Source of the DNA: Deltaproteobacteria bacterium RIFOXYD12_FULL_57_12
GTDB lineage: Bacteria; Desulfobacterota; Desulfobulbia; Desulfobulbales; BM004
DNA length: 36,699 bases
NCBI GenBank assembly: GCA_001799275.1
Contig: MGTE01000057.1
Coordinates: 5,598-42,296, forward strand
Direction of reading: 5' to 3'
The notes under the pieces were generated by a model. That model was not told the DNA's origin. It was given only the letters and a program-made list of their open reading frames with translations, and did not search any database. Numbering within the stretch: the stretch's first letter is position 1; each line of letters starts with the position of its first letter. Positions 1-30,861 of the stretch are shown one piece after another. The position numbers and the translations under genes were made by a program.

Positions 1-3000
1 AGGCGCGTTGGCTAATTCGCCATACCAGCCCGGGAACTTGGTCGGCTTGGCATGGTAGGGTACCACCACCCTCGCGCTCACACCATTGTGGCAGGCAACG
101 CAGGCGCCGAAGTCCTGAATCTTGCCGGCGGTGTTGAAGGAGTGGTTCACGGCCATGGTGGTCTTATACGGCCGGTATACAAAGTTGCTGCTGTTGATAT
201 GGCACTGGCGGCAGGCCGCCTGCACCGGCACATCCTTGGCAGAGTCCGGCACAACGTGACAGAACGTACACTGACCGGCCTTGGCCTCGGTTGAATTGGC
301 ATGATGATTCGGCATGGTATGGCAGGCCAGACAGGAGACCGACACACCGGCCTGGCCATCGGCAATGGCCTTCACCACTGCCGGGACAGTACTTGCATGG
401 CAAACACTGCAGGCCAGCTTGCGTTTATCCACATGCTCGACCACCACGTTCTTGTCATGGCAGGTCGCGCAACCGGTGCTCGGCACCACAGTCATGTCGT
501 GAGCCGCCTTATGGTCGATCGACGCGCCATGGCAATCCGTACAGAGAACCATCGTCCCGTTCATGCCCTTGGCAATAATGCTGGCATAGGCGGTGTTGGC
601 GTGGCAGACCGTACAGGCCAGGGTGCGGTTGACGCTGTGCTCGGTTGCCACGTTTTTGTTGTGGCAGCTAGAGCATTCGGTTGAAGGTACATCGGTCATG
701 TTGTGCGCTGCCACATGGTCGACGCCCTTATGACAGCTGTAACAGTCGACCTGGGTGCCGGCCATGCCCGCCTTGATGGCTGCAACGTGGTTCGGATCCG
801 TACTGGCATGACAGGTTATACAGGTGAGGCCGCGATGATCAACGTGTTCGATAACCACGTTGGCGTCGTGGCAGGCGGTACAGCCTGTGGCGCCTGTCGG
901 CAGCCCAACCTTATCGTGGGCCTGACTGTGGTTGCCGGCGTTCAGGTGACAGTCTGAACAGTAGACCGGTTGGCCGTTCGTGCCTCGACCCTTGGCAATG
1001 GTGGCCTGCACCGTGGAATTGGTGCTCGCATGACAGGTGGCGCACGCAAGGAGTCGAATGGTGACATGCTCGGTGACAACGTTGGCGTTATGGCAGTCGC
1101 CACAGTTGCCGGTATTCAGCAGGGCCTTGTCATGGGCGGCCGTATGCGGGGTTGTATAGTCAACCAGCGCATGGCAGGCCTCGCAGGTCTGCAGGCTGCC
1201 GGTGGCACCCTTGCCGTTGGCAATCGCATCCTTGACTTTTTGGTCCGGACTGCTGTGGCATACGGTACAGGTGAGAGTCCGGTTGGTGACATGTTCGATG
1301 GCGACATCCTGAACATGGCACTCGAGACATTTGGCAACCGGTGTGCCGGTTTTGTTGTGGGCATTGGTATGGTCAGAAGTAGTATGGCACTCCGTACAGG
1401 TAACCGGCTGGGGCGGCCCATTCGCGCCTCTGCCCTTGTCAATGGCTTCCTGCACTGCGGGGTTGGTGCTGTCATGACAGACGCCGCAAGCGATGCCGCG
1501 GTTGTCCACATGCTCGGTCACCACGTTTTCCACATGGCAGTCCTTACAGGCGGCCTGCGGCACTTTCGTCATATCATGGGCCGCGCCATGGCTGAGGTTG
1601 CCGGTATGGCAGTCCGCGCAGTTGACATTGCTGCCGGCGAGTCCCTTGGCCAGGGCGTTCTGCACCACGGTGTTTGCGCTGTTGTGGCAAGCCACACAGC
1701 CCCAGCCTCGGGAAGCATGCTCAACCGCGGCATTCGCGTTGTGGCAATCCTTGCAGGCCCCATCGGTGGGCATGATGATCTTGGTATGCATGGCCGCATG
1801 CGCGTCATGGCAGGAGGTGCAACTAATGTTCACCCCACCGGTGATGACCCCGATAACCTTCGGGTCCGTGCTGCCGTGGCATGTGGCGCAGTCGGTGTGC
1901 AGCGTCAAAATGGACGCCGTGGTGGTGTTCAAGGTTTTATGACAGTCGGCGCACCCGGCTGTAATACTGATCTGATGATCAGTGTCAAAGGCATGTGCCG
2001 CATGGCAGGTGGTACAGGTGACAGGCAGCTTGGCCTTGATGGCATCAATTACAGTCTGCCGGGTGCTGCTGTGGCAGGTGGCGCAGGAACCGGCGCCATT
2101 GGTGGCCACGTTGTGGATGGCCTCAATGCCGGTCAGGTTGGCGTCCAGCTTGGTGTGGCAGGATTTGCAGCCGGCGGTTTCAGTGATCTTGTGGACACTG
2201 AAGGAATGGCCCTGCGCACCATGGCAGGTCGTGCAGTCCGCCTTTGTGCCGGCAATGCCCGTGGTGATGGCATTCAGAACCTCGGGCCGTGCACTGAGAT
2301 GGCATTTCAGACAGTCGTTCTTGTGCAGGGTGTTGATCTGGTTCTGGTTGGTGCTGACGTGACAGCCGGAACAACTGGCTGCAGTGACCATATCCACATG
2401 GGTGTCCATGGCTTGGTTGATATGGCATGCCGAACAGTTAGAACCGGTATTGACAAATATAGTGTCATAGTGCAGAACGCTGGGATTGACTATGACCTTG
2501 TGGGTTCCAGTGTGGCAGTCTGCGCAGCCAACCGTAACGCCGGCTGTGCCCTTGCCCTTGGCAATGGTATTCATCACTTCGGGGCGTGTGCTGGCATGGC
2601 AGGTCTTGCAGCGCCCGGCCCAGGTGCTGTCGTTCGTCGGATGGGCGTTGATGATGTAATCGGCATCAGGGCCGGTAACCTTATCGGTGTGGCAGATGGC
2701 GCAGGTCTTGTTTGCCTGCAATTTGTTGTGAGCCATCGTGCTATCATGTGGGGCATGGCAGTCGGCGCAGGACACTGGCAGTCTGGCCGTGATCTTCGCC
2801 TTGACATCAGTGCGGCTGCTGTTGTGACAGGTAGCGCAGGAACCGGCGCCATTGGTAGGCGTATTGTGTATTGCTTCGATGCCGGTCAAAGTATTGTCAA
2901 GTTTGCTGTGGCAGTCCTTGCAGCCGGCGGTTTCTGTGATCGAATGGATGTCGTTGAATACATGGCCGGTGTGGCAGGCGGAACAGGTAACAGGTTGCAG

Positions 3001-5820
3001 AGCGGCAATCGCGGCCTTTACCTCCGGTCTGCTGCTCTTATGGCAGGTGGCGCAGGAACCGGGACCGTTGGTCGCTACGTTGTGGAGCGTTTCAATGGAT
3101 GCCGGGGTGCCATTAAGAGCAGTGTGGCAGCTGTTGCAGCCGTCAACCGCCGTTATCTTGTGGGTGCTGAAATTATGTTTCTGAGCCAGGGTTCCGTGGC
3201 AGGTAGCACAGTCCATAGGGCTGGCCGGTTTGGTGTTGATCAGCGTCAACACCGCGGGCCGTGTCGATGAGTTCGAATGACAGGTCGCGCAGTTCTTCTT
3301 GTGGGTAACGCCAATGATGTCGGCATTGCCGTGGCAGGAGGCGCACTCGCTAAACACGGAGATCAGCTGGTGGTGTCTGGTGTTATGCGTGTCAAGAGAT
3401 TCCCAGAAATGGCACTCGAAACATGGCACTGGTGTGCCGTTAATTCCCTTTTGGATGATGGGCGCAAACATCGCGTCAACATGGCAGGTGGTACAGTCAA
3501 CCCCGCGGTTGTCATGTTCCGTGGCAGCATTGGCCACATGGCAGTTGGCGCACACGGTTTCGGTGGCATGCAGAATGGTTTTGTCATGGCCAGCCCGATG
3601 CAGGGTAAGGATGCCATTATGGCAGTTACCGCAGGTTACCGGCTGCCTGGCCGCGATGAGGGCCTGGACATCTGACCGTGGGCTGTTGTGACAGGTCGCG
3701 CAGGAGCCAGCGCCGTTGGTCGGGGTGTTGTGCGCCGCTTCAATGCCGGTAAGGGTGGTTGGGGTGCCCAGTGCTGTATGGCAGGCGGCACAGTTGTCAG
3801 TTGGCAAAATGCTGATGGAATGAATGTCCTTGAATACATGATCGGCATGACAGGAGTAGCAGTCATTCGCAGATTTGGCGGCGATGATTGCCTTGACGTC
3901 AGCCCGCACGTTAGGTCCGTGGCAGGTGGCGCAGTCATTGGCATGCACGGTCTTGATTGATTCAATCGTGCCGTTCAGTGCTGTATGGCAGGCGGCACAG
4001 GATGCTACCTGGTTGATGGTGTGGACGGTCATTGGGTGGTCGGTATGGCAGGAGTAGCAGTCTTTTGCCGATTTGGCGGCGATGATAACCTTCACATCTT
4101 GCCGCACGTTAGGTCCGTGACAGGTGGCGCAGTCATTGGCATGAACGGTCTTGATTGATTCAACCGTGCCGTTCAGTGCAGTATGGCAGCCGGCACAGAT
4201 CGCTACCTGATCGATGGTGTGGACGCTCATGCTGTGGTCGGCATGGCAGGAGTAACAGTTATCCGCAGATTTGGCGGCGATGATATCCTTCACATCTTGC
4301 CGCACGGTGGGACCGTGACAGGTGGCGCAGTCATTGGCATGCACGGTTTTGATTGATTCAACCGTGTCGTTCAGTGCAGTATGGCAGATTTTACAGGACG
4401 CCACCGAGTTGATGGTGTGAACGGTCATTGGGTGGTCAGCATGGCATGAGTAGCAGTCTTCCGCCGATTTGGCAGCAATGATTGCTTTAACTGCAGCCCT
4501 TACGCCAGATCCGTGACAGGTGGCGCAGTCATCTGCATGCACGGTTTTGATCGATTCAATCGTGCCGTTCAGTGCGGTATGGCAGCCGGCACACATCGGC
4601 ACCTGGTTGATGGTGTGGACAGACATCGGGTGGGTGGCATGGCAGCTGGCGCAGGTTACCGGCTGCCTGGCTGCGATCAGGGTTTTGACATCGGTTCGCG
4701 GGCTGTTGTGGCAGGTGGCGCAGGAACCAGCGCCGTTGGTCGGTGTGTTGTGCACTGCCTCGATGCCGGTCAGCGAGTTATCCAGTTTGGTGTGGCAGGA
4801 AATACAGCCAGCGGTTTCGCTGATGGAATGGATATCATTGAATACATGTCCGGTATGGCAGCTGGTGCAGGTTACCGACTGCCTGGCCGCGATCAGGGCT
4901 TGGACATCGGCGCGCGGGCTGTTGTGGCAGGTGGCGCAGGCGCCTGCGCCGTTTTTTGGTGTGTTATGCACCGCTTCGATCCCAGCCAGCGAATTGTTGA
5001 GTGTTGTGTGGCAACTGGCGCAGCCGGCTGTTTCGGTAATTGTAGAGGTACCGCTCGTGGTTTTGTGGGAGTTGATGGAGTGCTTCTGTGCCAGGGTGCC
5101 GTGGCAGGAAACGCAGTCAACCGCCAGGGCCGGGTTGGCAACGGCATTGGCGATCACCGTTGGCACCGGCGCGCGGGTGCTTGAATGGCATGATCCGCAG
5201 GAGCCCTTATGGGTAGTGCCAATAATGTCGGCACTGCCATGACAGGAGGCGCATTCATTAGATACCGCAATATGGCCGTCATGTCTGGTCGTATGGGAAT
5301 CAAAAGCCGGGATGCCATATTTTGATGGCGAGGTATGGCAGTCGGTACAGACAGGGGCAGCTGCGGCGTTGATGATTGGGCTGAATGTGGCGTTGTGGCA
5401 CTTGCTGCAGTCGATCTGCCGATTGACCGAGTGTTCGATGACGACATTCTGCTGGTGGCAGCTGGCGCACATCGGCTGCGGGGTGGTGGTCAGGCTGTGC
5501 TCAGGTACGTGCGGTTTGGTGTGGCAATCGGTACAGGTCAGAGGATTAGGAAGACCGGATGCATGACAAAAGGTGCATGTGAACCCATTAGCAGCCCCAA
5601 CATTGTGGTGCATGGTCTTGACATCATATTTTGGTGTCCCATCAGGGTTTAGTACGATGACGCCACTTTTATATGTGTAAGGAAACACATGGCATGGATA
5701 GCAGTTGCTTGCCGCCACGCCGGCTGATGCGGTGCCCCCCTGACAGAGCCACAAAAGCGGCGTCAACACCAGGGCTATCATACATATCCATTGCCTAAAT
5801 CCGATTTTTCCCCCCCACAT
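1..5820 (-). CDS. Giant multiheme c-type cytochrome (at least 79 CXXCH motifs), 3' end beyond window
   Basis: The minus-strand frame starting at ATG 5820-5818 stays open for 1940 codons to the window edge, so the C-terminus is missing. A signal peptide is visible (hydrophobic core at residues 12-26, likely cut after ASA at residue 33). The first heme motif, CYPCH, is at residues 40-44. I counted 79 in-frame CXXCH motifs from 5703 down to 88, each expected to bind heme c covalently, plus many extra His residues that could be distal ligands. Start support: a G-rich Shine-Dalgarno stretch lies just upstream (about 5827-5832). The protein consists of repeats: 66-residue HTINQVA-type units, 72-residue NGAGSCATCHNSPR-type units, and about 70-75-residue units with N-x3-EH after the heme. 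No recognised non-heme domain is visible; the last 29 residues seen are heme-free. It is inferred to be a periplasmic or surface electron conduit. Long plus-strand frames over this region are antisense shadows. Confidence 0.95.
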   Translation of the reverse strand, partial: MWGGKIGFRQWICMIALVLTPLLWLCQGGTASAGVAASNCYPCHVFPYTYKSGVIVLNPDGTPKYDVKTMHHNVGAANGFTCTFCHASGLPNPLTCTDCHTKPHVPEHSLTTTPQPMCASCHQQNVVIEHSVNRQIDCSKCHNATFSPIINAAAAPVCTDCHTSPSKYGIPAFDSHTTRHDGHIAVSNECASCHGSADIIGTTHKGSCGSCHSSTRAPVPTVIANAVANPALAVDCVSCHGTLAQKHSINSHKTTSGTSTITETAGCASCHTTLNNSLAGIEAVHNTPKNGAGACATCHNSPRADVQALIAARQSVTCTSCHTGHVFNDIHSISETAGCISCHTKLDNSLTGIEAVHNTPTNGAGSCATCHNSPRTDVKTLIAARQPVTCASCHATHPMSVHTINQVPMCAGCHTALNGTIESIKTVHADDCATCHGSGVRAAVKAIIAAKSAEDCYSCHADHPMTVHTINSVASCKICHTALNDTVESIKTVHANDCATCHGPTVRQDVKDIIAAKSADNCYSCHADHSMSVHTIDQVAICAGCHTALNGTVESIKTVHANDCATCHGPNVRQDVKVIIAAKSAKDCYSCHTDHPMTVHTINQVASCAACHTALNGTIESIKTVHANDCATCHGPNVRADVKAIIAAKSANDCYSCHADHVFKDIHSISILPTDNCAACHTALGTPTTLTGIEAAHNTPTNGAGSCATCHNSPRSDVQALIAARQPVTCGNCHNGILTLHRAGHDKTILHATETVCANCHVANAATEHDNRGVDCTTCHVDAMFAPIIQKGINGTPVPCFECHFWESLDTHNTRHHQLISVFSECASCHGNADIIGVTHKKNCATCHSNSSTRPAVLTLINTKPASPMDCATCHGTLAQKHNFSTHKITAVDGCNSCHTALNGTPASIETLHNVATNGPGSCATCHKSSRPEVKAAIAALQPVTCSACHTGHVFNDIHSITETAGCKDCHSKLDNTLTGIEAIHNTPTNGAGSCATCHNSSRTDVKAKITARLPVSCADCHAPHDSTMAHNKLQANKTCAICHTDKVTGPDADYIINAHPTNDSTWAGRCKTCHASTRPEVMNTIAKGKGTAGVTVGCADCHTGTHKVIVNPSVLHYDTIFVNTGSNCSACHINQAMDTHVDMVTAASCSGCHVSTNQNQINTLHKNDCLKCHLSARPEVLNAITTGIAGTKADCTTCHGAQGHSFSVHKITETAGCKSCHTKLDANLTGIEAIHNVATNGAGSCATCHSSTRQTVIDAIKAKLPVTCTTCHAAHAFDTDHQISITAGCADCHKTLNTTTASILTLHTDCATCHGSTDPKVIGVITGGVNISCTSCHDAHAAMHTKIIMPTDGACKDCHNANAAVEHASRGWGCVACHNSANTVVQNALAKGLAGSNVNCADCHTGNLSHGAAHDMTKVPQAACKDCHVENVVTEHVDNRGIACGVCHDSTNPAVQEAIDKGRGANGPPQPVTCTECHTTSDHTNAHNKTGTPVAKCLECHVQDVAIEHVTNRTLTCTVCHSSPDQKVKDAIANGKGATGSLQTCEACHALVDYTTPHTAAHDKALLNTGNCGDCHNANVVTEHVTIRLLACATCHASTNSTVQATIAKGRGTNGQPVYCSDCHLNAGNHSQAHDKVGLPTGATGCTACHDANVVIEHVDHRGLTCITCHASTDPNHVAAIKAGMAGTQVDCYSCHKGVDHVAAHNMTDVPSTECSSCHNKNVATEHSVNRTLACTVCHANTAYASIIAKGMNGTMVLCTDCHGASIDHKAAHDMTVVPSTGCATCHDKNVVVEHVDKRKLACSVCHASTVPAVVKAIADGQAGVSVSCLACHTMPNHHANSTEAKAGQCTFCHVVPDSAKDVPVQAACRQCHINSSNFVYRPYKTTMAVNHSFNTAGKIQDFGACVACHNGVSARVVVPYHAKPTKFPGWYGELANAP
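457..1755 (-). repeat. Seven degenerate ~204-225-bp units in the distal part of the giant cytochrome
   Basis: Hemes at 457, 661, 868, 1090, 1315, 1534 and 1741 are each followed in the protein by a short N-x3-EH sequence (for example DKNVVVEH, NANVVTEH, VENVVTEH) and then a second heme after HVDxR. Each unit carries three hemes in about 68-75 residues. These units are more diverged from one another than the 198-bp array, so they look older. Confidence 0.8.
3847..4638 (-). repeat. Four tandem 198-bp units inside the giant cytochrome gene
   Basis: Heme codons recur at exactly 198-bp intervals (3847, 4045, 4243, 4441 and 4639), with the two other hemes of each unit in register (3919/4117/4315/4513 and 3985/4183/4381/4579). 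Each unit encodes 66 residues with three CXXCH motifs. The protein theme is HPMTVHTINQVA, then CAACHTALNGT, then DCATCHGPNVR, then DCYSCHAD. The units are visibly near-identical at the DNA level, which points to recent duplication or ongoing homogenisation. Confidence 0.92.
4639..5070 (-). repeat. Two tandem 216-bp units inside the giant cytochrome gene
   Basis: Heme codons at 4639/4708/4792 repeat at 4855/4924/5008, all offset by 216 bp (72 residues, three hemes per unit). The protein theme is AGCxSCHTxLxNSLxGIEAVHNTP, then NGAGSCATCHNSPR, then a VTCxSCH motif. The same 216-bp spacing recurs at 2755/2824/2908 versus 2971/3040/3124, so this family is used more than once. Confidence 0.85.
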
Positions 5821-5922: not shown

Positions 5923-6318
5923 TTACGGGCCTTCTGAAAAAATAATCCGGTCAAAGGTGCGGTCGATCCCGGACATGTGATAATTTTCCATGACCACGCC
6001 CGCTTTGAACGCAACCGTGTCGCCGACCTTGACCGTGATGGTTGACGGGATGGCGGCCCATTTAAAAGAATTGGATTTTGCCCTGTCGTTATTTTTTATT
6101 TCCTGAACTTTAACGATCAACCGGTCGTCAAAGGGAATGATTTCCGAAACAACGCCAGCGACCGTTCCCATGACCCGCGGGAGATCCTCGCGGACTGGCC
6201 TGCGGTTCTCTCGGTTGCCCTTTTCCGAGGCGGCGACCGCCAGGCCGGCGCTGGTCAATAAAGAGCAACTCACGATGATAGCAACAATTATGCCCCAGAT
6301 TTTTTTACCAGCACACAT
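5923..6318 (-). CDS. Small exported protein of unknown function, beta-rich
   Basis: This encodes 131 residues from ATG 6318. I chose that start because a GGAGGAGAGGG Shine-Dalgarno sequence lies about ten bases upstream and the protein then begins directly with a classical signal peptide: Lys-Lys, a hydrophobic stretch (residues 5-27) and an AVAAS cleavage region. A longer 158-residue frame from 6399 would bury this signal. The mature part of about 100 residues opens basic, then has alternating beta-like segments (MGTVAGVVSEI, RLIVKVQEI, STITVKVGDTVAFKAG). This could be a small OB-fold or SH3-like barrel, but I do not recognise the family and see no heme or metal motif. It ends 102 bp upstream of the giant cytochrome on the same strand, so co-transcription and a shared envelope role are plausible inferences. 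Confidence 0.7.
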   Translation of the reverse strand: MCAGKKIWGIIVAIIVSCSLLTSAGLAVAASEKGNRENRRPVREDLPRVMGTVAGVVSEIIPFDDRLIVKVQEIKNNDRAKSNSFKWAAIPSTITVKVGDTVAFKAGVVMENYHMSGIDRTFDRIIFSEGP

Positions 6319-6798: not shown

Positions 6799-9039
6799 CT
6801 ACGGTTTAGGAGCCTTCTCCTTTTTCTTGACGCCGGTCAGTTGCTCGCGCAGGGAATTTGTCTTTTCCTTGAACTTGTTGATGTATTGGTCGAGGACATC
6901 CTCGGACTCGATGACATAGGGTGTGATCATGATCAGCAGTTCGGTGCTGTTGTTCGACTGGGACTGGTATTTGAACAGCCAGCCGAACAGGGGAATGTCT
7001 TTGGCGATCGGGATGCCATTTTCGTTGAGTTCCCCTTTTTTCTTTATGAGCCCGCCCATCATGATGGATTGGCCGTCCTTGACCGCCAGCTTGGTCTTCA
7101 GTTGTCTGGTGATGATGATCGGGGAATCAATGCCTGAACTCGTATTCTTGGCAAGGTCGTTCACCTGCTGATCAATATCCAGGATGATGATGCCGTTGTA
7201 GTTGATCCGTGGCGTCACGGTTAGAATAATGCCGGTGTCTTTGTATTGGACGGTCCTCGTATTGGTGCCACCTGTCGTGTCATTCAATGCTTCCGAGGTG
7301 ACAACCGGCACCTGCTGGCCGACGTTCACCGTGGCGGTTTCATTATTGAGCACCAGGACCTGTGGCGAGGAAAGAATGGAGACATCGTTGGCGTCCGCCA
7401 GGGCATTCAAGAGACCAACGAGTCGATCGGTGCTGCTGACCACGCTGTATGAGAAACCGCCAAGCGCCGCATCGGTCACTTTCTCAAAGTTGGTTTGGTA
7501 CGTCTGGCCGTAGGTATTGTGGTTGACGTTCAACTTCTGGTCCTTCAGTGCCCATTCAATGCCGAATTTCCAGGAGTCGTCAAGGTTGACCTCCGCCACC
7601 ATGACTTCGATCAGAACCTGGCGCGGCAGGTTGTCCAGCCGTTCCAGAAGTTTCATGAGTCGGGTGTAATCAGCCGGCATGGCCCGCAGCAGGATGACAT
7701 TGCGGCTGTCGTCCGGGATCAGGGTCGGTTCTCCGGCAAAATGCAGGGAAGAGGAGACTTCCTTGGCAATGGCCTTTCTGTTCTTCAGCCCGGCCGCACC
7801 TTCGGGCGCTGCGGCAGGGGGCTCGTTGCCGGGCGATTGCGGGTTCTGTGGCGACCGGGATGAGGCGGATTGCGGTGCACGGGCGGAGGCCGATTTTGAG
7901 CGGGTCGATGCTGTCTCGGGCCGCGTGCTGCCGCCATTTTCACTGATCATGGAATTTACAAGATCAGCGAGCTCGGATGCCACCGAATTGCGGACATTGT
8001 AGATATAGATGTTATCTCGGCCCTGGCCCTGGACAACATCGAGTTCATTGATCCATTTTTCAGCGCTTTTGATCAACGATTCACTGCTGCTTACCAGCAG
8101 AAGTGAGTTTGTCCGTTCAAGCGGGACAACGGAAACTCCTTCGTAGTCCTGTTTGTTAATTTTTAGGGCATTGAAGATTTCCACCAGCTCGTCACGGAGC
8201 TGGAAGAGGGGGGCGTTTTCCACCCGGATCAGTTTGATTTTTAACGAGGAGAGCGCCGAGATATCTATGCGGCTGAGCAGGGTAAGGGCGTCCAGTACAT
8301 TGCTTTCAAAATCGGCAATGATCAGGGTGTTGGTCGCCGTAAGATTATAGAGGGAGCCCTGGTCGGAAATATACGGCTCAATCAGCTTCTGGGCCTCGGC
8401 GGCGGAGAGATTCATGATCGGAATGACCTGGATCACCACCCGTGAAGAACTTTCGAGGTTCGAGGCCTGTTCCGGCCCATAGATCTTGCCGGCCGCAAAT
8501 TTCTTGGCAACATAGATGTAATCGTATTTGCCTTCCTGGCGAATGTCCAGGCCGTTAATGTTCAGTATTTTTCTAAAGATCTCAGGGAGCTGCGCCATCG
8601 GAATCTTGGTGCCGGATCTGATGTTGACCACGCCCTTGACCTGAGGATCAACTATATAATTCATCCCCAGAGTCGCGCCGATAACCTGGATAATCTCGTA
8701 GATATCGGCGTTATCAAAGTTGAGCAGAATACCTTCGCCAGCCGTCTGAGTTGGTACTTCCCTACTTGCTTGAGGTGTCAGTTTTTTCAGGAAAGGATTC
8801 TCCGACTCGCTTGCATCACTTAGGTCCTTGACTTTGGGAGAGCCCTCGCCCGGGAGTTCGGCCTTGTCCGCCACATCGAGGTTGCTGCTCGGCTGCGCTG
8901 GTTTCTTGACCTGGGAGCTGATCTCTTCCAGGTTCATGGTAGGTCTTTCGCTATGTTTGGTCTGCAGAAAATTCGAGCATCCGAAGACCAGTATTAAGCA
9001 GGTCAATAGTAAACCTGTTGTGATTCCCTTAAGTCGCAT
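6799..9039 (-). CDS. gspD: Type II secretion outer-membrane secretin GspD (lipoprotein form)
   Basis: This encodes 746 residues. GspD forms the outer-membrane channel of the type II secretion system. The N-terminus has a lipoprotein signal with lipobox LVFG-C (Cys21), so it is probably lipid-anchored and may not need a separate pilotin. After a low-complexity linker, the N0 domain lies at about 105-180 (LLNFDNADIYEIIQVIG), followed by N1 and N2 at about 200-345. N3 is interrupted by a Ser/Pro/Ala-rich insertion. The secretin barrel occupies about 480-715, with VPVVTSEALND, the YKDTGIILTVTPRI strand region and the closing VKDGQSIMMGGLI motif. The C-terminus is Lys-rich. Length is normal for the family. 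It is the last gene of the operon, after a 212-bp gap that contains inverted repeats. Confidence 0.96.
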   Translation of the reverse strand: MRLKGITTGLLLTCLILVFGCSNFLQTKHSERPTMNLEEISSQVKKPAQPSSNLDVADKAELPGEGSPKVKDLSDASESENPFLKKLTPQASREVPTQTAGEGILLNFDNADIYEIIQVIGATLGMNYIVDPQVKGVVNIRSGTKIPMAQLPEIFRKILNINGLDIRQEGKYDYIYVAKKFAAGKIYGPEQASNLESSSRVVIQVIPIMNLSAAEAQKLIEPYISDQGSLYNLTATNTLIIADFESNVLDALTLLSRIDISALSSLKIKLIRVENAPLFQLRDELVEIFNALKINKQDYEGVSVVPLERTNSLLLVSSSESLIKSAEKWINELDVVQGQGRDNIYIYNVRNSVASELADLVNSMISENGGSTRPETASTRSKSASARAPQSASSRSPQNPQSPGNEPPAAAPEGAAGLKNRKAIAKEVSSSLHFAGEPTLIPDDSRNVILLRAMPADYTRLMKLLERLDNLPRQVLIEVMVAEVNLDDSWKFGIEWALKDQKLNVNHNTYGQTYQTNFEKVTDAALGGFSYSVVSSTDRLVGLLNALADANDVSILSSPQVLVLNNETATVNVGQQVPVVTSEALNDTTGGTNTRTVQYKDTGIILTVTPRINYNGIIILDIDQQVNDLAKNTSSGIDSPIIITRQLKTKLAVKDGQSIMMGGLIKKKGELNENGIPIAKDIPLFGWLFKYQSQSNNSTELLIMITPYVIESEDVLDQYINKFKEKTNSLREQLTGVKKKEKAPKP

Positions 9040-9251: not shown

Positions 9252-10142
9252 TCATGGGAGACGGTTATCGCCCATTGGAATTCTGAGGCCGGCCGGGACT
9301 GGGTTGTCTGTTGACTGTGGTCGTTCCGCCTCGCCTGTTTCCGAGGATAACGGCGGTCGTCTGATTCTGAGAGAAGTCGGCGCTGGTTTTAATTTTCCGT
9401 TGCCGGTGTTCTCGGGATTTTCACCTCCTGCCGCCGGTGGGGTCGGGGCTTGTATCCCAGCTGCCGGTGGTCTTGTCTGGGCTCCGGCGCCTTCTCCTGG
9501 CCCCGTTCCCTCAACTGCGCCACCTTTCTCCGCAGGCGGAGGGCTTTTCTTGTGGGCTGGCAGTTCGGTAACGCGTTGTTTGGCAGGATCGAATAGGGGC
9601 CGCTCTATCGTTTCGCCATTTTTTGCAAAGACAATCCGCTCCGGGAGTATCTCCATAACCTCATAGCCGTTGAACTGTTCTCCCACCACCAGTTGCTGGT
9701 GCGTTACATTCTTCACGGCCGCGCGGCTAGCGACCTGACCCCTACGGCGCGGTTGCTCTTTTGGTTGGTCTTTCGCCGAGGCGGAAAAGGAGATCAGCGC
9801 TTTTTTCTCTTCGCCGATGATTATGGAGCCGGAATAGGTTACGTCTGACAACTTGAAGCTGTCATTCCCCTCGGTTGCTGTGCTGGTGGGGTCCAACTCC
9901 CTTTGCTCGTTGAACAGGTAAGACTTGTGCAGATCAGGCATGGTTGTCGGTGGCGGTGGATAGAAATCGATTTTCTCTTGGCTGACGACAGCGGTGGGCT
10001 TACCAGAGGAATCAACATCGGGTGAGACCGGAATCTGTCCGGTCTGCCAGGCGATGAAGCAGCTTCTAGCCAACAGGAGGAAGGCGATTAGCAGACCGCT
10101 GATTATCGAACCTCTAACTATCACAATTGCATCCTGATCCAA
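9252..10142 (-). CDS. gspC: GspC-like inner-membrane component of type II secretion
   Basis: This encodes 296 residues. GspC links the inner-membrane platform to the secretin. There is one N-terminal membrane segment (about residues 9-26) and a periplasmic Pro-rich linker (FYPPPPTTMPDL). A homology-region-like beta domain follows at about 90-195 (LSDVTYSGSIIIGEEKKALIS, then VGEQFNGYEVMEILPERIVFAKNGETIERPLF), which matches the pattern of GspC/PilP HR domains. Beyond about residue 200 the chain is a long Pro/Gly/Ala/Glu-rich tail with no PDZ domain, unlike the classical enterobacterial protein. It lies 6 bp after gspM and 212 bp before gspD. The assignment rests on HR-domain resemblance and position in the operon, so a PilP-like label is the alternative. 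Confidence 0.75.
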   Translation of the reverse strand: MDQDAIVIVRGSIISGLLIAFLLLARSCFIAWQTGQIPVSPDVDSSGKPTAVVSQEKIDFYPPPPTTMPDLHKSYLFNEQRELDPTSTATEGNDSFKLSDVTYSGSIIIGEEKKALISFSASAKDQPKEQPRRRGQVASRAAVKNVTHQQLVVGEQFNGYEVMEILPERIVFAKNGETIERPLFDPAKQRVTELPAHKKSPPPAEKGGAVEGTGPGEGAGAQTRPPAAGIQAPTPPAAGGENPENTGNGKLKPAPTSLRIRRPPLSSETGEAERPQSTDNPVPAGLRIPMGDNRLP

Positions 10143-10148
10143 TGTTTT

Positions 10149-10715
10149 TTATTTTTCTTGGGGGATACGGTAAAATCCACGTAGTTCCAAGAAGATAGTA
10201 AGCTTTGTGTCCCTTGACGGTTTTAGGGTGAAGCTTTCCATTTGAAACAATTTTTTTGATTGATAGAGACCGGCCAGAAAATGGGAAAACTCATTCAGGG
10301 AACCGGCGAAGCGCACCTTGATCTCGATCTCGCCGATGGTTTTACCTTGTTCGCTATTTTTCTGAAAACTCGGCTTTAAGGTCTCAAGCACCAGCCCGGC
10401 CGCGGTCAACTGTTCCTGAATGGCTATTTGCATGCTCGATGCGGCTTCCTCAACCGATTTGGCCTCAAACAGAAAGGAGTCCATCTGTTCCTTCTGTTTG
10501 ACTAATGTTGCAACCCTGGCTTTAAGCCCGGCAAGTTTACCGGCCGAGATCTGGTGCTGCCCAAGCAAGGTGACTCGGCTTTCAAGTTCTGCCTGCTGGT
10601 TTTGGAAATAGAGCGTTGCATATCTGCCGAGGTTTACCACCAGAAGCACTGCGGCAAACCACAGCAGCAAGGTTTTTGTACCGTAGCGGTCTATAAGCTG
10701 AGTGAGCCGGTTCAT
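10149..10715 (-). CDS. gspM: GspM/PilO-like inner-membrane platform protein
   Basis: This encodes 188 residues. GspM partners GspL in the inner-membrane platform of the secretion machine. A short cytoplasmic N-terminus is followed by one membrane segment (about residues 14-31). A coiled-coil region follows (about 36-85: QQAELESRVTLLGQ, KLAGLKARVATLVKQKEQMDSF), and then a ferredoxin-like periplasmic domain ending in LTIFLELRGFYRI. This is the usual PilO/GspM layout and length. Its start overlaps the end of gspL by 4 bp (ATGA), which indicates translational coupling. Confidence 0.85.
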   Translation of the reverse strand: MNRLTQLIDRYGTKTLLLWFAAVLLVVNLGRYATLYFQNQQAELESRVTLLGQHQISAGKLAGLKARVATLVKQKEQMDSFLFEAKSVEEAASSMQIAIQEQLTAAGLVLETLKPSFQKNSEQGKTIGEIEIKVRFAGSLNEFSHFLAGLYQSKKLFQMESFTLKPSRDTKLTIFLELRGFYRIPQEK

Positions 10716-11857
10716 GTGAGCGTGACTTCTACCTGGAAATAGGTTTTGTTCTGCCGCCGGCTGGTTGATTTAAGCGTGGCCTGGCCGAGTTCTTGGAGTT
10801 TTGTGGTCAATTCGCTGACATCATCGGTATAACCCTGCAGGAGAAGGGATCGGCTCTTGCCGTCCATCCGTAGCTGATCCAGGTAGGATTTTTTGGGCAA
10901 GATCTCGGCCAGTTTTTCAAGCACCGGGATAATCTCTGGGTTTTTGCCAACTGTATTCAACTGCTTGATCTCCTCGGTCACCTTTCGTTCTTGTTCGCGA
11001 AGTTTTTCCGCCTCTTGTACCTGGGGCATGATTTTATCGAGTTCCATCTCAACCAGCCGGTTGGTTCTAAGCAGGCTGAACTCCTTAACTCCGATCAAAC
11101 CAAGCACGGCAATCATATTAAGAACCAGAAGGGCGATAATCGCAATTCTCGTATAATCGGGCAGCCTGTATGTGGCGGGCAGCAGATTGAACTCCTTGAG
11201 CGCCGGCAGTTCGCTTATCAACGGCTGGGCCGGTTTGAAACTGCTGCCGGATGGTGGTTCCACATGATATATGGTCTGCGTGCCACAGAGTGACGTCAGG
11301 TCGTCGAAGGCCGGCTCGGTGCTGCACAGAAACCGATCCTCCAGGTGAGTCCCGGAGAAACTCAAGACCTTGGGAAAATTGCCCGGCAAGACTAATGCCC
11401 ATTTTGTTTTCTGGCTTGCCCGGCCGACATACCTTTGACTTTCAGGGTAGAGACCAATTAATTTGTAACCCGCCGCCAGAATATCTTGAGCGGCTTTTTC
11501 AGCGGGGCCTCGCCTGGTTACAACCAGTGATACTTTGTAGTTTTCCTTGTGGCGTCGGCTCGTAAAACTGTAGAGCACCTCTTCTTTTTTAAAGGGGGTG
11601 AGCATCTCCAGTTGGTAGGCGATGGTTTTGCGCAGATCGCTTGATTTGAGGGGAAGGAGTGCTTCCTTATAATAAATCAGTTCCTCGGAGAGATAGAGAA
11701 CGGCCCTGGCGGTTTTGACGCCATGCCGGCCGCAAAATTCAACCAGACGTTGCCCCAGTTGTTCGGATTCATCGACTACTTCGCTGATTGCGGGATCATG
11801 CGGGTGAACAATGGTCGAGCCGCGCGGGCCGATAATTATGGTCAGAATGTTCTTCAC
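10712..11857 (-). CDS. gspL: GspL, type II secretion platform protein
   Basis: This encodes 381 residues. GspL binds the ATPase GspE in the cytoplasm and GspM in the membrane. The N-terminal half (about 1-225) looks like the actin-like PilM/GspL cytoplasmic domain (LTIIIGPRGSTIV, ARAVLYLSEELIYYKEALLPL). The motif FNLLPATYR then precedes a single membrane segment (about 237-257), typical of PilN/GspL joins. A charged coiled coil (about 262-305) and a small periplasmic ferredoxin-like domain complete it. It is flanked by 4-bp overlaps with gspK upstream and gspM downstream, so it is tightly co-translated. Confidence 0.88.
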   Translation of the reverse strand: MKNILTIIIGPRGSTIVHPHDPAISEVVDESEQLGQRLVEFCGRHGVKTARAVLYLSEELIYYKEALLPLKSSDLRKTIAYQLEMLTPFKKEEVLYSFTSRRHKENYKVSLVVTRRGPAEKAAQDILAAGYKLIGLYPESQRYVGRASQKTKWALVLPGNFPKVLSFSGTHLEDRFLCSTEPAFDDLTSLCGTQTIYHVEPPSGSSFKPAQPLISELPALKEFNLLPATYRLPDYTRIAIIALLVLNMIAVLGLIGVKEFSLLRTNRLVEMELDKIMPQVQEAEKLREQERKVTEEIKQLNTVGKNPEIIPVLEKLAEILPKKSYLDQLRMDGKSRSLLLQGYTDDVSELTTKLQELGQATLKSTSRRQNKTYFQVEVTLT

Positions 11858-12897
11858 AAGGGGCTTTCCTTCCAGGACAGGTATTTTAGGCCAGCTCTTT
11901 CGACGCTGATAAGCGCACTGATCTTGATTCCTGCGGTTTCCTGCATTTTCTTTTGCTCGCCTTCGGCAGAATAACCTGCCAACCCCTCGCCAACAATAAA
12001 ATAATTTGGGTTGCGGTTTGAGGAGTAGGCAAGATAGGGGCTGAAGAGGGCATATCTTTCATCTCCGAGGATCTGTTGAGCCTGTGTTGCCGTAAGGATC
12101 TGTTGAGGCTGTGTTGCTTTTGTTGCCGTGAGCTCTTCACCCGGCGCCCCGGCAGCGGAATATGCCTCAATGATGTCCGCATCGCCGCCGGCCAGGAAGT
12201 CCAGCATTGCCGGGGTCAGGCTGTTGAAGTTAATCTTACTGCCAGGATTGTAGACAGTAAAGACCTCGGCAGCGGTAAATTTGCCGGCCAGAACATCTGT
12301 GCCGTTGACCAGAAAGAATTCCGCCGGGTCCACAATCGCGCCATTCCTGGGGATATACGGGTCGATCATCGCCTTGTAAGTGTCCTGTTCCGCGCCATGC
12401 AACCGGTGAAAATTATCCGTGTCGCGCCAATCGGCCAAGGAGTCAACGATAGTGGCAATCTGTTCCTCGTCTAATCCATAGTGTTTAAAAAAAAGTTCAA
12501 GCAGCCCGGCAGGCGCTGAGTTCAAATCTATCTTGCCGGTTTCGTTTACCGCATAGTATGCCACCTTACCGGCCGGCAGGAATGTTTCATAGGTGTGTCC
12601 CTCATGAAATTTTTCATTTGCCAGCTCATTGTCGCTGGTCGGCAGGTCCAGCAACCGGAAAAGCGCGAGGTTGAGGCCGGCCTCGGCGAGAAACCTGGAA
12701 CGGAAATTCATCTTCGTATTGTTGGCAATCTGGACCTCGGTGCGGACCATCATGATGTATTGGGATGCCATGAAGGTTAAGAGCAACAGAACAACGACCA
12801 CAATCAGGAGGGCGAAACCTTTTTCAGAGGGTTGGCGCCATCGTGCCAGATCCGCAGGTCTTGATTCTGGCTGGTTGATTTTATAGAATATTTTCAT
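11854..12897 (-). CDS. gspK: GspK minor pseudopilin
   Basis: This encodes 347 residues. GspK is the largest minor pseudopilin and caps the pseudopilus tip. The leader ends KG-FALLIVVVVLLLL, with prepilin-peptidase cleavage after Gly27. As expected for GspK, there is no Glu at mature position 5. The alpha-domain insertion is visible at about 120-260, including GKIDLNSAPAGLLELFF and SLADWRDTDNFHRLHGAEQDTY, the helix-hairpin-helix-like part of GspK. A second similar stretch, KINFNSLTPAMLDFLAGG, follows. The gene follows gspI after 14 bp and overlaps gspL by 4 bp. Confidence 0.94.
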   Translation of the reverse strand: MKIFYKINQPESRPADLARWRQPSEKGFALLIVVVVLLLLTFMASQYIMMVRTEVQIANNTKMNFRSRFLAEAGLNLALFRLLDLPTSDNELANEKFHEGHTYETFLPAGKVAYYAVNETGKIDLNSAPAGLLELFFKHYGLDEEQIATIVDSLADWRDTDNFHRLHGAEQDTYKAMIDPYIPRNGAIVDPAEFFLVNGTDVLAGKFTAAEVFTVYNPGSKINFNSLTPAMLDFLAGGDADIIEAYSAAGAPGEELTATKATQPQQILTATQAQQILGDERYALFSPYLAYSSNRNPNYFIVGEGLAGYSAEGEQKKMQETAGIKISALISVERAGLKYLSWKESPL

Positions 12898-12911: not shown

Positions 12912-13235
12912 TTATAATTTATTTTTTTCCAATTTCAACGTCACGAACCCCTGCTCTTCATCAGCTACCAGCACTAATCGGAACTGCAGACCTTCAAGGT
13001 AAATCGTCTGGTCAGGCTCGGTTGTGGGGTCTTCCTGATCGGCCAACAGGCTGTTTTCAAAAAGCAGGGCGTTCATGAACATATCTGTACGTTTCTGTCC
13101 GAGCCGGGAGATGTTTTTTGCTGAAAGGGAAAAGTTCTGCAGGATTGCGACATAGGACAGACCCAGGATAACAGTGGCTACTAATACCTCTAAGAGGGTA
13201 AAACCTTTTTGTCTGCCGCGACCGCTTTTCGGCAT
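12912..13235 (-). CDS. gspI: GspI minor pseudopilin
   Basis: From ATG 13235 this gives 107 residues with an 11-residue basic leader, QKG-FTLLEVLVATVILGL, including Glu at mature position 5. GspI and GspJ form the pseudopilus tip with GspK. I prefer this start because the leader length is typical and GGAG lies 10 bases upstream. An ATG at 13340 that overlaps the gspJ stop would add 35 residues rich in Pro and Arg, unusual for a prepilin leader, but the overlap style matches other genes in this operon, so it cannot be excluded. The C-terminal part has beta-rich segments (QTIYLEGLQFRLVLVADEEQGFVTLKL). The assignment as GspI rests on size and position between J and K. Confidence 0.85.
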   Translation of the reverse strand: MPKSGRGRQKGFTLLEVLVATVILGLSYVAILQNFSLSAKNISRLGQKRTDMFMNALLFENSLLADQEDPTTEPDQTIYLEGLQFRLVLVADEEQGFVTLKLEKNKL

Positions 13236-13336
13236 CACCGATCGCTCCGATCGGCCGGCCACAAAGTTTAGCCGGCCATGCATGCTTGTCGGATGTTTCC
13301 GGCGCGGTAACGGAGGAATCAAGAAGGGCAGCGGGT

Positions 13337-13918
13337 TCATTTTTTTTGCGTATTTTGCAGGGGAGTTTTGGTTAAGATATCTTCTTCCCGGTTTGCGCAG
13401 CGCGGATAAAAGGTGTGCTGATTGCCGGCATAATCGATACTCACGGAACGGGTCTCGGGATCATACTCCATGGCGATGGCGCTTTCGATTTTGCTTAAGG
13501 CAGTCATTTCCTTGAAATCAGGCTGGTAGTTCTCCGTGTAGTCAATATTATAGAAATCCTTTTTTTCAAGATAGTATAATATTTGGTCAGCTTGATCGTA
13601 GCGGTACACGGCCAAGACCAATTCTGCGGACCGGTTGATTAAAGGGACGCGGGTGACAACGCGTAACGTGTCGCCATCAGTTGAAATTATTGGAACTTTA
13701 GTCTGCGGGTCGTACCAGGCACTGCTGATCTGTCGGTGCAGCAGGTCAAGCAGTCCCTGCTGCCGCGCGTTAACCAGGAGTTGTTTCTCGCCTTTGTGCG
13801 ACGCGCGGATTGCGACGTTCATGATTGAATAGATCATGGTGGATATCATGCCAAGGAGGACTACCGCCACCAGCAACTCCACAAGGGTGAAACCTTTCTG
13901 GTGACTTGGGAAGAGCAT
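13337..13918 (-). CDS. gspJ: GspJ minor pseudopilin
   Basis: This encodes 193 residues. A short 9-residue leader ends QKG-FTLVELLVAVVLLGMIS, with Glu at mature position 5, a standard type IV pilin-like signal. The body is longer than GspI and beta-rich (GDTLRVVTRVPLINRSAELVLAVYRYD, TRSVSIDYAGNQHTFYPR), typical of GspJ. It is separated from gspH by 98 bp and overlaps the longer possible gspI start. It is predicted to sit in the pseudopilus tip complex with GspI and GspK. Confidence 0.88.
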   Translation of the reverse strand: MLFPSHQKGFTLVELLVAVVLLGMISTMIYSIMNVAIRASHKGEKQLLVNARQQGLLDLLHRQISSAWYDPQTKVPIISTDGDTLRVVTRVPLINRSAELVLAVYRYDQADQILYYLEKKDFYNIDYTENYQPDFKEMTALSKIESAIAMEYDPETRSVSIDYAGNQHTFYPRCANREEDILTKTPLQNTQKK

Positions 13919-14016: not shown

Positions 14017-14493
14017 TCAGTTCATTAACGGCAGGGCGGTAAGCGGATCCATGGTAATCCTCTGGGTCCGCTGACCCTTGGTCAGAACGATTTCCGCCGG
14101 GGTTACCTGACTTTCAGGGAAAAACACCACCTCTGCCGGCTGCAGAGCGAGGCTGTCAATGTCCTCAAAATCATACCTCTTGGCTTCCGATTCGGTGCCA
14201 TTCAGTAGAAGCAGAGCGAAGGGGTTGTCCGGATCAACCATTATTCGTACTTCTCTGCCCTTGCTCACCGACAGGAGTCGGGCATAGCGCAATGCGCCCG
14301 CAAGCTTCTCGGTCTGCCGGCGGAATTCAACATTGTTGGCGATCCGAATGGCACTTGGTGCGGCAAGTGCGGCGATTACTCCCAAGATGATGAGGACAAC
14401 CAGCAGTTCAAATATGGAAAAACCTGCCAGCCGCGGTTCGGTTGTTTGCGGCGACCAGGAGCGTTGGCATACGGATGGCCGGCGGGGAATCAT
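14017..14493 (-). CDS. gspH: GspH minor pseudopilin
   Basis: This encodes 158 residues. The leader is 24 residues, ending LAG-FSIFELLVVLIILGVIA, with Glu at mature position 5. The hydrophobic helix is followed by KLAGALRYARLLSVSKGREVRIMVD, which matches the GspH/FimT family pattern. GspH joins the pseudopilus shaft to the tip. Its ATG overlaps the gspF stop by 4 bp, so translation is coupled. Length is normal for the family. Confidence 0.9.
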   Translation of the reverse strand: MIPRRPSVCQRSWSPQTTEPRLAGFSIFELLVVLIILGVIAALAAPSAIRIANNVEFRRQTEKLAGALRYARLLSVSKGREVRIMVDPDNPFALLLLNGTESEAKRYDFEDIDSLALQPAEVVFFPESQVTPAEIVLTKGQRTQRITMDPLTALPLMN

Positions 14494-15704
14494 ACGGCGA
14501 TATCACTGATACTGAGAATGACGGACAGCATGGAAAAGACCACATAACCGATAAAGATGGCGATAAATACGATGAAAACCGGTTCGACCAGGGCAATCAG
14601 CCTCTTGATGCGGACCCGCAGCTCATTTTCGAAATGATCCGCGATCTGGCCACAGACCTGGCCAACACGGCCGGATTCCTCGCCGATTGACAGGAGGTCG
14701 ACGGCAAGGTCAGGCAGCAACCCTTCGGCTTTGATCCTTTTTCCGACCCGTTGTCCTTCTTTCAGCGCCTGGGTTGCTTGGTGGAGCAGGTGCTGGTATT
14801 CCGAGTTGCTGGCGACGCCGCTGCTTATTTTTAGAGCGGTTGCCAGATGCACACCGTTATTGACCAGCACCTCAAGAGTTCTGAATATCTTGGTGGTTTC
14901 CATGTCCCGGATGAAGTTTGCCAAAAGAGGCGTCCGGATGAGCAGTCGATCGGCCACTCGTCTGCCTTTACTGGTGCGAAGATATGAGATGAGGGCAATG
15001 GGGGGGATGGCCAGCAGCAGAATGGTGAGAAAAAAATGGCTGCTGATCAGTTTGGCTGTTTCCATGAGCATTCTGACATGGAGAGGTAACTGTTTGCCGA
15101 CGCCCTCGAAAAGCACCTCGAATTTTGGCAGGATTAAAGTGACCAGGATGGTCAGCGCGACCGTACCGACGAAAATCAGGATGACAGGATAAATCGAGGC
15201 GGAGATGATAAACTGCTTGAGGTCCTGGAATGTACTCTGGTATTCCGATGTCCTCACAAGCATGGCGGGCAGGATGCCGCCCTCTTCGCCGGCTCTCGCC
15301 ATGTTGACATACATTGATGAAAAATGTTTGGGATGCTTGGCCAGCGCCTGGGAAAACGATTTGCCCTCTTTCAGATCGCGTTCGATTGTGCCGGTAAATT
15401 CTTTAAAAGCCGGTTTGGTCGCCTGCTGTTTCATCACGCGCAGTGCACCGTCTAGCGGCAGGCCGGCGTTCAGCAGCAGGGCGATCTGTTTGGTGAAGAA
15501 ATTTATGTCGGCGGTGGAGATTTTTTGGGAGCGAAAGCGGGCCAGCGGCAGGGTCATCTTCGCCGGGGAACGTTGCCGTATCTCGAGGGGACGCAGTCCC
15601 TGCAGCATAAGTCGTCTGGCGACCGCTGTTTCGTCGTTTTCCTCCAGCACCCCTTCGACGACGGCATTTTCGGCGTTCAAGGCCGAGTAATTATATAGGC
15701 CCAT
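14490..15704 (-). CDS. gspF: GspF inner-membrane platform protein
   Basis: This encodes 404 residues, the usual length. GspF is the polytopic core of the inner-membrane platform that works with the GspE ATPase. Two T2SSF domains are seen at about 70-195 and 270-395: the first has FFTKQIALLLNAGLPLDGALRVM and ARAGEEGGILPAML, the second has KIFRTLEVLVNNGVHLATALKIS and SIGEESGRVGQVC. Three membrane segments lie near 170-190, 220-240 and 375-398. The start overlaps gspE by 14 bp. The N-terminal YNYSALNAENAVVEGVLEENDE is the typical GspF opening. Confidence 0.96.
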   Translation of the reverse strand: MGLYNYSALNAENAVVEGVLEENDETAVARRLMLQGLRPLEIRQRSPAKMTLPLARFRSQKISTADINFFTKQIALLLNAGLPLDGALRVMKQQATKPAFKEFTGTIERDLKEGKSFSQALAKHPKHFSSMYVNMARAGEEGGILPAMLVRTSEYQSTFQDLKQFIISASIYPVILIFVGTVALTILVTLILPKFEVLFEGVGKQLPLHVRMLMETAKLISSHFFLTILLLAIPPIALISYLRTSKGRRVADRLLIRTPLLANFIRDMETTKIFRTLEVLVNNGVHLATALKISSGVASNSEYQHLLHQATQALKEGQRVGKRIKAEGLLPDLAVDLLSIGEESGRVGQVCGQIADHFENELRVRIKRLIALVEPVFIVFIAIFIGYVVFSMLSVILSISDIAV

Positions 15705-17373
15705 CTTCTTTGCCTCTGCATACTCGCATCACTTCTGAAAGCGTGGTGACGCCCTCCCTGACCTTGGCCAGTCCGTCCGCAAACATCGGCTGAAAGCCTT
15801 GCGCCTCCGCGACATCTTTCAATTCAAGCAGATCCATTCCTTTGGAGATGCCACGGCTCAGGGCTTCATCCACGACAAGAAATTCATAGAGGCCGATTCG
15901 GCCTGAATAACCGGTATTGGAGCAGTGCTGGCAGCCTTTCCCCTTGTACATCACAAAGTCGCTGTTGTCCGGTTGATATACGAGGTGCTCGGCCACCATG
16001 CCCTTCTCAATCTTGCAATGTGTGCAGATGCAACGCACCAGCCGTTGGCTCAGCACGGCCCGCAGAGAGGACGAAATGAGAAAACGCTCCACGCCGATAT
16101 CGACCATCCGCATTACGGCGGAGAGGGCATCATTGGTGTGCAGGGTACTGAAGACCAGATGGCCGGTAAGCGATGACTGCACGGCGATCTCGGCGGTGTC
16201 TAGATCCCGGATTTCACCGATCATGATCACGTCCGGGTCCTGTCGGACTATTGAGCGGAGGCCGCGGGCAAAGGTCAGGCCGATCTCCGGTCGAACCTGG
16301 ATCTGGTTGATGCCGTGCAGTTGATATTCAACCGGATCTTCAATGGTAATGATCTTGTTGTCGCCAGAATTGATGTGGTTCAAGGCGCAGTAGAGCGTGG
16401 TAGTCTTGCCGCTGCCCGTTGGGCCGGTAACCATGACAATGCCGTGCGGCACCGTGATGATTTCCTTGAATTTTTTTTCAATTCCCGGGCTCATGCCCAG
16501 TCGGCTCATCTCCAGGATGATGTTCCCTTTCTCAAGGATGCGCACCACCACGCCTTCGCCATAAACCGTAGGCATGGTGGAGACGCGCAAATCGATTTCC
16601 TTGCCGGAAATCCGCATGGAAATCTTGCCGTCCTGTGGCAGGCGACGTTCGGCAATATCGAGCGCGGCAAGCAGTTTTGTTCTGGAAATTATCGCCGCCT
16701 GCATGGATTGGGGCGGAATTTCGTAATCATGCAGTATGCCGTCAATCCGGAAGCGGATGGTCATGCCTTCCTCAAAGGGTTCGAGATGAATATCGCTTGC
16801 CCGGCGATTTACCGCGGTGTCGATCAGATTGTTTACATATTTGATTACCGGGGCTTCGGACGCCATATCCTTAAGTTTGTCGATATCAGCTTCCTCGCCG
16901 GCGTAACCGGGTTCTACCTCATCGTGCAGGTTCAGACCATAATGGTCATCCATTATCTTTTTCAGATGTGTTTCCTGGAGAAGCTGGATGGCAAACGGTT
17001 CCATCGCCAGCATCTCCGCGGCGGAGAGAATATCTCCGTCCTGGGGATCGGAAAGGATGAGCACGGTTTCGCCGCTGCCCTTCTTGACGAAAGCGAAGGG
17101 ATGCTCACGATGGAAGGGGAGAGATATCTCGAGAGGCAGAAATTCGTCGTTGGGCGTCGGAGAATAAAGGTTTAGGGAAAATTCCTGGGCCAGGGCCGCC
17201 ATCAAATCTTCCTCGCTGATGAAACCCAGCGAGATCAGTATCTCGCCGAGACGATGCGGAACGGTTTCTTGATGAGAGAGAGCACGTTCAAGCTGGGCCG
17301 GCTGCAGCTTACCTTTTTGGATGAGTCGCTCGCCAAGAGACTTCTTTTTGGTGAAGAAAATCGTTTGGGTCAT
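15691..17373 (-). CDS. gspE: GspE secretion ATPase
   Basis: This encodes 560 residues. It is the hexameric cytoplasmic ATPase that drives pseudopilus assembly. An N-terminal MshEN/T2SSE_N-type domain (about 10-150, LGEILISLGFISEEDLMAALAQE) is followed by the RecA-like domain. Walker A GPTGSGKTT lies at 317-325, the Asp box IITIEDPVEYQL at about 341-352, Walker B VIMIGEIRD at 382-390, and the His box GHLVFSTLHTNDA at about 404-416. The zinc-binding CxxC pair is at Cys450/453 and Cys481/484. It is the first gene of the minus-strand operon. The start at 17373 is preceded by AAGG within about 12 bases. Confidence 0.97.
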   Translation of the reverse strand: MTQTIFFTKKKSLGERLIQKGKLQPAQLERALSHQETVPHRLGEILISLGFISEEDLMAALAQEFSLNLYSPTPNDEFLPLEISLPFHREHPFAFVKKGSGETVLILSDPQDGDILSAAEMLAMEPFAIQLLQETHLKKIMDDHYGLNLHDEVEPGYAGEEADIDKLKDMASEAPVIKYVNNLIDTAVNRRASDIHLEPFEEGMTIRFRIDGILHDYEIPPQSMQAAIISRTKLLAALDIAERRLPQDGKISMRISGKEIDLRVSTMPTVYGEGVVVRILEKGNIILEMSRLGMSPGIEKKFKEIITVPHGIVMVTGPTGSGKTTTLYCALNHINSGDNKIITIEDPVEYQLHGINQIQVRPEIGLTFARGLRSIVRQDPDVIMIGEIRDLDTAEIAVQSSLTGHLVFSTLHTNDALSAVMRMVDIGVERFLISSSLRAVLSQRLVRCICTHCKIEKGMVAEHLVYQPDNSDFVMYKGKGCQHCSNTGYSGRIGLYEFLVVDEALSRGISKGMDLLELKDVAEAQGFQPMFADGLAKVREGVTTLSEVMRVCRGKEDGPI

Positions 17374-28562: not shown

Positions 28563-28612
28563 TTTCGCCAATAAACTGTTTAATAATATACATTTTTAAG
28601 GAGGAAACGAAT

Positions 28613-30607: not shown

Positions 30608-30662
30608 TTGTCTTCTAGGGTCGATGAAATTTTTAATGATCCGAAGATAGATGCGGTAAAAA

Positions 30663-30703: not shown

Positions 30704-30732
30704 ATACGGATTCCTTAATAGTTTCTGCAAAC

Positions 30733-30822: not shown

Positions 30823-30861
30823 TCATACAGGAAATCATCACTTTATTAATGGAGGAATGGC

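Follow-up and report, generated by a model that had tools for sequence, protein, structure and literature searches.

A 79-heme c-type cytochrome encoded next to a type II secretion locus in a Desulfobulbales genome, and relatives that share its C-terminal cap

Introduction

The extracellular filaments of OmcS, OmcE and OmcZ are polymers of 4-8-heme subunits, and heme stacking in OmcS filaments amounts to about 0.8 nm per heme. Giant multiheme cytochromes (MHCs), with tens of hemes in a single polypeptide, have so far been highlighted mainly in archaea. The ANME-2c ERB4 cytochrome contains 86 hemes (PMC9012536), a 113-heme protein of Ca. Methanoperedens Mn-2 was described in 2020 as the largest of any microorganism (PMC7327174), and a survey from 2024 mentions gene neighbourhoods in which there are more than a hundred motifs (PMC11475568). 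For bacterial MHCs of electrode communities, 45 hemes in Geobacter, 49 in Burkholderiales and a survey range up to 53 have been given (PMC7399161). The GSU1996-type proteins of Geobacter (12 to 27 hemes) are built from tandem triheme domains of the Cytochrome_C7 type in one chain.

The analysis presented here concerns a stretch of 36,699 nucleotides (the window) from the genome of Deltaproteobacteria bacterium RIFOXYD12_FULL_57_12, order Desulfobulbales, which corresponds to C57:5598-42296 (C57, contig MGTE01000057.1) in an assembly of 3.84 Mb, 126 contigs and 90% completeness. As this locus and its relatives show, covalent heme arrays of a size similar to the archaeal ones are also encoded in Desulfobulbales and Desulfuromonadales. 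The coordinates of the features are collected in Table 1.

Table 1. Features of the cytochrome and type II secretion region, with positions in the window
Feature	Positions	Strand	Remarks
Giant multiheme c-type cytochrome	1..5820	-	N-terminal 1940 of 2112 residues, with all 79 CXXCH; gene end outside the window at C57:5079
Start of conserved cap	1..333	-	Hemes 76-79 and PYHAKP segment; runs past the window into the heme-free segment, then TIG (alignment A1)
Heme array	334..5535	-	Residues 96-1829, hemes 3-75; 24 units CxxCH-H-H-CxxCH-H-CxxCH, one unit with an extra heme
Most regular part of array	3842..4645	-	Four tandem 198-nt units (66-residue, 3-heme; 4.1 copies), 82% matched
Signal-peptide-like N-terminus	5719..5820	-	MWGGKIGFRQWICMIALVLTPLLWLCQGGTASA, then GVAAS; judged by eye
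Small secreted companion	5923..6318	-	131 aa, likely start 6318; between gspD and the cytochrome
GspD, T2SS secretin	6799..9039	-	TIGR02517, 426 bits (cutoff 351); PF00263
GspC-like	9252..10142	-	By position and syntenic counterpart in G002; no family match
GspM-like (T2SSM_b)	10149..10715	-	
GspL-like (PilN domain)	10712..11857	-	
GspK-like	11854..12897	-	
Pseudopilin, GspI-like by position	12912..13340	-	N_methyl
Pseudopilin, GspJ-like by position	13337..13918	-	N_methyl
Pseudopilin GspH	14017..14493	-	PF12019
GspF	14490..15704	-	PF00482; best NCBIfam TIGR02120, below its cutoff
GspE ATPase	15691..17373	-	PF00437; best NCBIfam TIGR02533, below its cutoff
GspG, major pseudopilin	17777..18247	+	Divergent; the genome's only match over the TIGR01710 cutoff

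Results and discussion

Extent of the cytochrome gene

The minus-strand frame of 1940 codons reported in the preliminary description was found as one unbroken frame that begins with ATG at position 5820 and reaches position 1 without a stop inside the window. That it is open at this edge results only from a 41-nt N run in the scaffold (C57:5557-5597), which directly precedes the first base of the window. Past the N run, the frame goes on for 158 codons to a stop at C57:5079-5081, so that the cytochrome, which had been regarded as still incomplete, comprises 2112 residues; the part beyond the gap adds no CXXCH motif and the total stays at 79. Immediately 3' of the stop there is a strong terminator, a 14-bp hairpin with a U run (MFE -29.5 kcal/mol, z -6.1). 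Relatives align on both sides of the scaffold gap in the same frame (cap alignment A1). At the gap, 14 undetermined codons in this gene stand against six residues (for instance GRGTFN) in the relatives, and this difference is eight whole codons, hence the frame agrees across the gap. From the stop, the terminator and the in-frame relatives it follows that the gene is complete except for a short unsequenced stretch.

Heme count and heme register

The 79 CXXCH motifs previously counted by hand were confirmed by a regular expression search, which gave exactly this number and no CX3CH or CX4CH motif in the cytochrome. In 200 shuffles of its residues the mean was 1.1 CXXCH and the maximum 6. Motif spacing ranges from 14 to 42 residues, with a mean of 23.9 residues per heme, and the Pfam family Cytochrome_C7 matches the protein with an E value of 1e-91. 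The computed mass is about 216 kDa without heme and about 265 kDa with 79 hemes. The many CXXCH motifs are present in a putatively exported polypeptide; the signal peptide mentioned earlier is supported as an export signal by a signal-like N-terminus, judged by eye.

Two irregular hemes are located between the signal-like start and the triheme units. Along most of the cytochrome, the number of His residues outside CXXCH after each successive motif is 2, 1, 0, 2, 1, 0, and this 2-1-0 order was observed in 58 of 77 successive triples (shuffle mean 7.8, maximum 22). When 19 triheme units were aligned, the only fully invariant positions were six Cys and six His, with no conserved Met, and all motif columns were present in each of 72 windows from relatives. 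The heme zone contains 83 non-motif His for 79 hemes. Given the invariant residues and these spare His, every heme can be bis-His, that is, a distal axial ligand in strict register is available for each heme, and the triheme unit, as read from its sequence, fits three bis-His hemes.

The C-terminal cap and the tip domain

The heme array is followed by a module with the pattern ACRQCH...DFGACxACH...YHAKP...APGRGxFNxF, which defines a family of cytochromes (alignment A1) and is found in this protein, where the APGRG part coincides with the scaffold gap. The absence of any non-heme domain, as had been stated, does not hold for the full protein: a conserved heme-free segment (linker) occupies residues ~1912-2020 and a TIG domain residues 2026-2104 (PF01833, E 4e-15). 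Only cytochrome domains and TIG were revealed in the Pfam scan of the full cytochrome. The domain behind the cap differs among relatives. It is TIG in this cytochrome and, twice, in G038; G002b and G017 each gave a weak GH115_C-like match, G028 has Big_9 and L065 has F5/8 type C. These beta domains are exchangeable and of surface type.

Comparison with described multiheme cytochromes

This 79-heme cytochrome is a large bacterial example of the known giant-MHC class and no record, since archaeal proteins with 86 and 113 hemes have been published. It resembles the ANME MHC types A-C in being a single exported polypeptide with tens of CXXCH and non-heme surface domains and a proposed role in extracellular electron transfer (PMC9012536, PMC7327174), whereas the S-layer, peptidase M6-like or pectin-lyase-like domains of MHC-A/B/C were not found here by the Pfam scan; the present protein has a TIG tip, the cap common to Desulfobulbales and Desulfuromonadales members, and a strict triheme register. 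With the electrode-community MHCs it shares a dense packing (about 23 residues per heme in those proteins), a variable heme number and a proposed role as molecular wire (PMC7399161), but they have fewer hemes than 79.

A phmmer search of the PDB with the whole cytochrome returned only TIG-like domains of cyclodextrin glucanotransferases, and for this reason profiles of the triheme unit were used. Such a profile matched GSU1996 (3ov0), in agreement with the tandem Cytochrome_C7-type triheme domains of both proteins. GSU1996 has one His-Met heme per domain (PMC10138318), in contrast to the six invariant His and the lack of a conserved Met in the units described here, and the present cytochrome has six times its hemes plus a cap, a tip domain and a neighbouring type II secretion system (T2SS). 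OmcS, OmcE and OmcZ were not among the matches listed for the triheme unit profile; those filaments would work alike, as an extracellular chain of bis-His hemes, whereas the chain is here covalent within one polypeptide. The score for the DmsE/MtrA family (TIGR03508) was 223 bits against a cutoff of 192, but the protein has 79 hemes and not ten, and it is not a member of that family.

Relatives sharing the cap

The cap is common to cytochromes with 6-87 hemes in Desulfobulbales and Desulfuromonadales and is conserved across genera. A cap scan of named genomes (A1) yielded 20 loci from Desulfobulbaceae and Desulfuromonadales MAGs, a few labelled only as Deltaproteobacteria. Within the order of the window, 21 of 258 genomes had a cap match at E 1e-12. 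Across the phylum, an even sample of 395 genomes contained, apart from the genome of the window itself, only two with a match at E 1e-15. Frames with a strong cap match contain from 6 to 87 CXXCH. Complete proteins with 86 hemes (G017) and 87 hemes (L065:4703-10978, Desulfuromonadaceae UBA6124) are among them; the latter is built from diheme HH units, shares the cap and has the F5/8 type C tip.

The triheme 2-1-0 order is kept in most Desulfobulbales members of the cap family and a diheme 2-0 order is found in the Desulfuromonadales members, while a few Desulfobulbales members have a mixed heme order. The cap tree has several weak branches and two long rows. Three changes are required to place the two grammars on it, at least two of them forced by well-supported branches, and therefore the array type has switched more than once under the same cap. 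No description of the cap or of the two heme grammars was found among the open-licence literature.

It is proposed, with about equal chances of being right or wrong, that the cap defines a family of adjustable-length surface heme wires. Such wires would have a constant tetraheme cap with its heme-free segment and an adhesive tip that can be exchanged. Their array would grow by whole modules (6-87 hemes) in a clade-specific grammar that keeps roughly one spare His for each heme, and in one lineage a T2SS would be the dedicated exporter. The relatives show that wires of this kind are assembled from repeated modules, with an end piece that is conserved and presumed surface-binding tips that are interchangeable, and the arrays of these bacteria can be read as a grammar in which each module provides one spare His for every heme. 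The family is a natural series of lengths, from 6 to 87 hemes under one cap, with which the dependence of conductance and redox span on heme number could become directly testable.

Very long heme frames are present in a single draft genome of the same order (G028). One frame of 8469 aa (C173:3-25409, minus strand; L038 and L039) is still open where its contig ends and has at least 252 CXXCH, and another contig (C176, L040) consists entirely of a single open frame, 5696 aa long, with 173 CXXCH. Each of these two counts is above the 113 hemes of the protein published in 2020. The reading of C173 and C176 as one gene was rejected: they share 94 nt where both heme frames meet the contig edges, and this overlap has the look of a repeat at which the assembly branched, which does not justify merging the two contigs. 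On contig C22 of the same genome (loci L162 and L106) a complete stop-to-stop frame of 4471 codons contains 110 CXXCH, and behind it lies a 66-heme frame open at the contig edge.

The type II secretion locus and the small companion

On the same strand, 5' of the cytochrome, the genes gspE-F-H-J-I-K-L-M-C-D are located, with gspG divergent. This T2SS locus is complete and is the only clear one of the genome. Between it and the cytochrome, the companion has a core predicted as a five-stranded OB-like barrel (pLDDT mostly >90), and its best Foldseek matches were mostly OB-fold proteins, none of them below E 0.001. The companion also precedes giant cytochromes in two relatives. The gene order in G002 is T2SS, companion, 54-heme cytochrome, companion, 36-heme cytochrome, with the T2SS genes ordered as here, and in G006 the companion precedes a truncated cytochrome. 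In the flanks examined of other cap-family members no T2SS genes were detected, the linkage being observed in G002 only. The view that the companion is exclusive to giant-cytochrome loci was rejected: of the 258 genomes of the order, 228 encode its domain, in most cases within proteins of about 300 aa, so that only the small stand-alone form beside giant cytochromes is special.

On the other side of the cytochrome, 3' of it and outside the window, secreted-type proteins with beta-helix and CarboxypepD_reg domains are encoded (L007:2690-4891 and 1-1734, minus strand), broken up by scaffold gaps.

Host metabolism and other cytochromes

The genes aprB and aprA, two genes for HdrA-like proteins (in the QmoA/QmoB position) and qmoC lie at 28143-35797 (+) of the window; aprA (943 bits), aprB and qmoC scored over their cutoffs. 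Together with dsrB, which is found on another contig of the genome, these aprBA and qmo-like genes indicate that the host has a dissimilatory sulfur pathway. The same genome has a cluster (G000:C10:1235-18463, L154) with three 12-heme genes and 5-heme, 26-heme and 16-heme genes, which also codes for a 707-aa beta-barrel candidate, an NHL-repeat protein and a PPIC protein. It is plausibly an outer-membrane electron conduit locus, resembling the porin-cytochrome type.

Proposed function

The protein is probably an exported cytochrome, likely located at the surface or outside the cell, in which 79 covalent bis-His hemes would form a long electron-hopping chain. The electron-wire reading put forward previously gains support from the spare-His register, the adjacent complete T2SS, the cap with surface-type domains and the beta-barrel/multiheme cluster. 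Surface-type beta domains come after the cap, and both here and in G002 the T2SS genes, in one and the same order, run up to the cytochrome genes. We infer heme loading, wire geometry, export by the T2SS, surface binding and extracellular electron transfer as follows. The polypeptide would pass out by Sec export, and the hemes would be attached in the periplasm. The T2SS could then export the cytochrome, by analogy with Shewanella MtrC, which is exported by a T2SS (PMC12175506), and from the adjacency of the locus. The C-terminal cap and TIG, at one end, may attach to the surface of a mineral, of matrix or of a partner cell, or may serve as an anchor, and the heme array would move electrons between an outer-membrane conduit and an outside acceptor or donor. 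The length of tens of nanometres given in the preliminary description is an extrapolation: 79 hemes would span about 60 nm if stacked as in OmcS filaments; GSU1996 is crescent-shaped, so the real span may be shorter. An AlphaFold2 model of a 9-heme stretch (73 in-register rows; hemes are absent from the method) had a pLDDT of 75 and no PDB match.

In a sub-version of the surface-wire explanation, which is possible, if rather doubtful, the protein would be a contact wire through which two species exchange electrons directly, its tip recognising a partner surface and not mineral. The exchange of carbohydrate- or surface-binding-type tips between relatives, the domains proposed for partner recognition in large ANME cytochromes (PMC9012536) and the dissimilatory sulfur pathway of the host, like that of syntrophic SRB, are in its favour, but the same tip domains would suit binding to mineral, matrix or the cell's own surface. 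An unlikely alternative is electron storage by a cytochrome retained in the periplasm, the role suggested for Geobacter GSU1996, whose tandem triheme domains are held to act as a periplasmic capacitor (PMC10138318) and which is the protein matched by the triheme unit profile (3ov0). A T2SS locus adjoins the cytochrome gene, TIG, Big_9 or F5/8C surface-type domains accompany the cap in family members, and a rod of some tens of nm would need to lie flat in the periplasm, all of which argue against such storage.

Assembly of the cytochrome gene

No exact DNA repeats of 30 nt or more were found within the gene, and its best tandem array is only 82% matched, so that misassembly by repeat collapse or expansion is unlikely. 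No plasmid records matched the gene. That modules were wrongly joined and the true protein is shorter or longer is very improbable, even considering a draft genome in 126 contigs with a scaffold gap in this gene and contigs of some relatives that break within such genes, because, apart from the lack of long exact repeats, the frame is unbroken, the alignment with relatives stays in frame from one side of the gap to the other, and complete relatives with 86 and 54 hemes are gap-free.

An antisense frame of 766 codons (window 970-3270, plus strand) extends across the cytochrome array; it probably arises from the periodicity of the repeat and is not regarded as a candidate gene.
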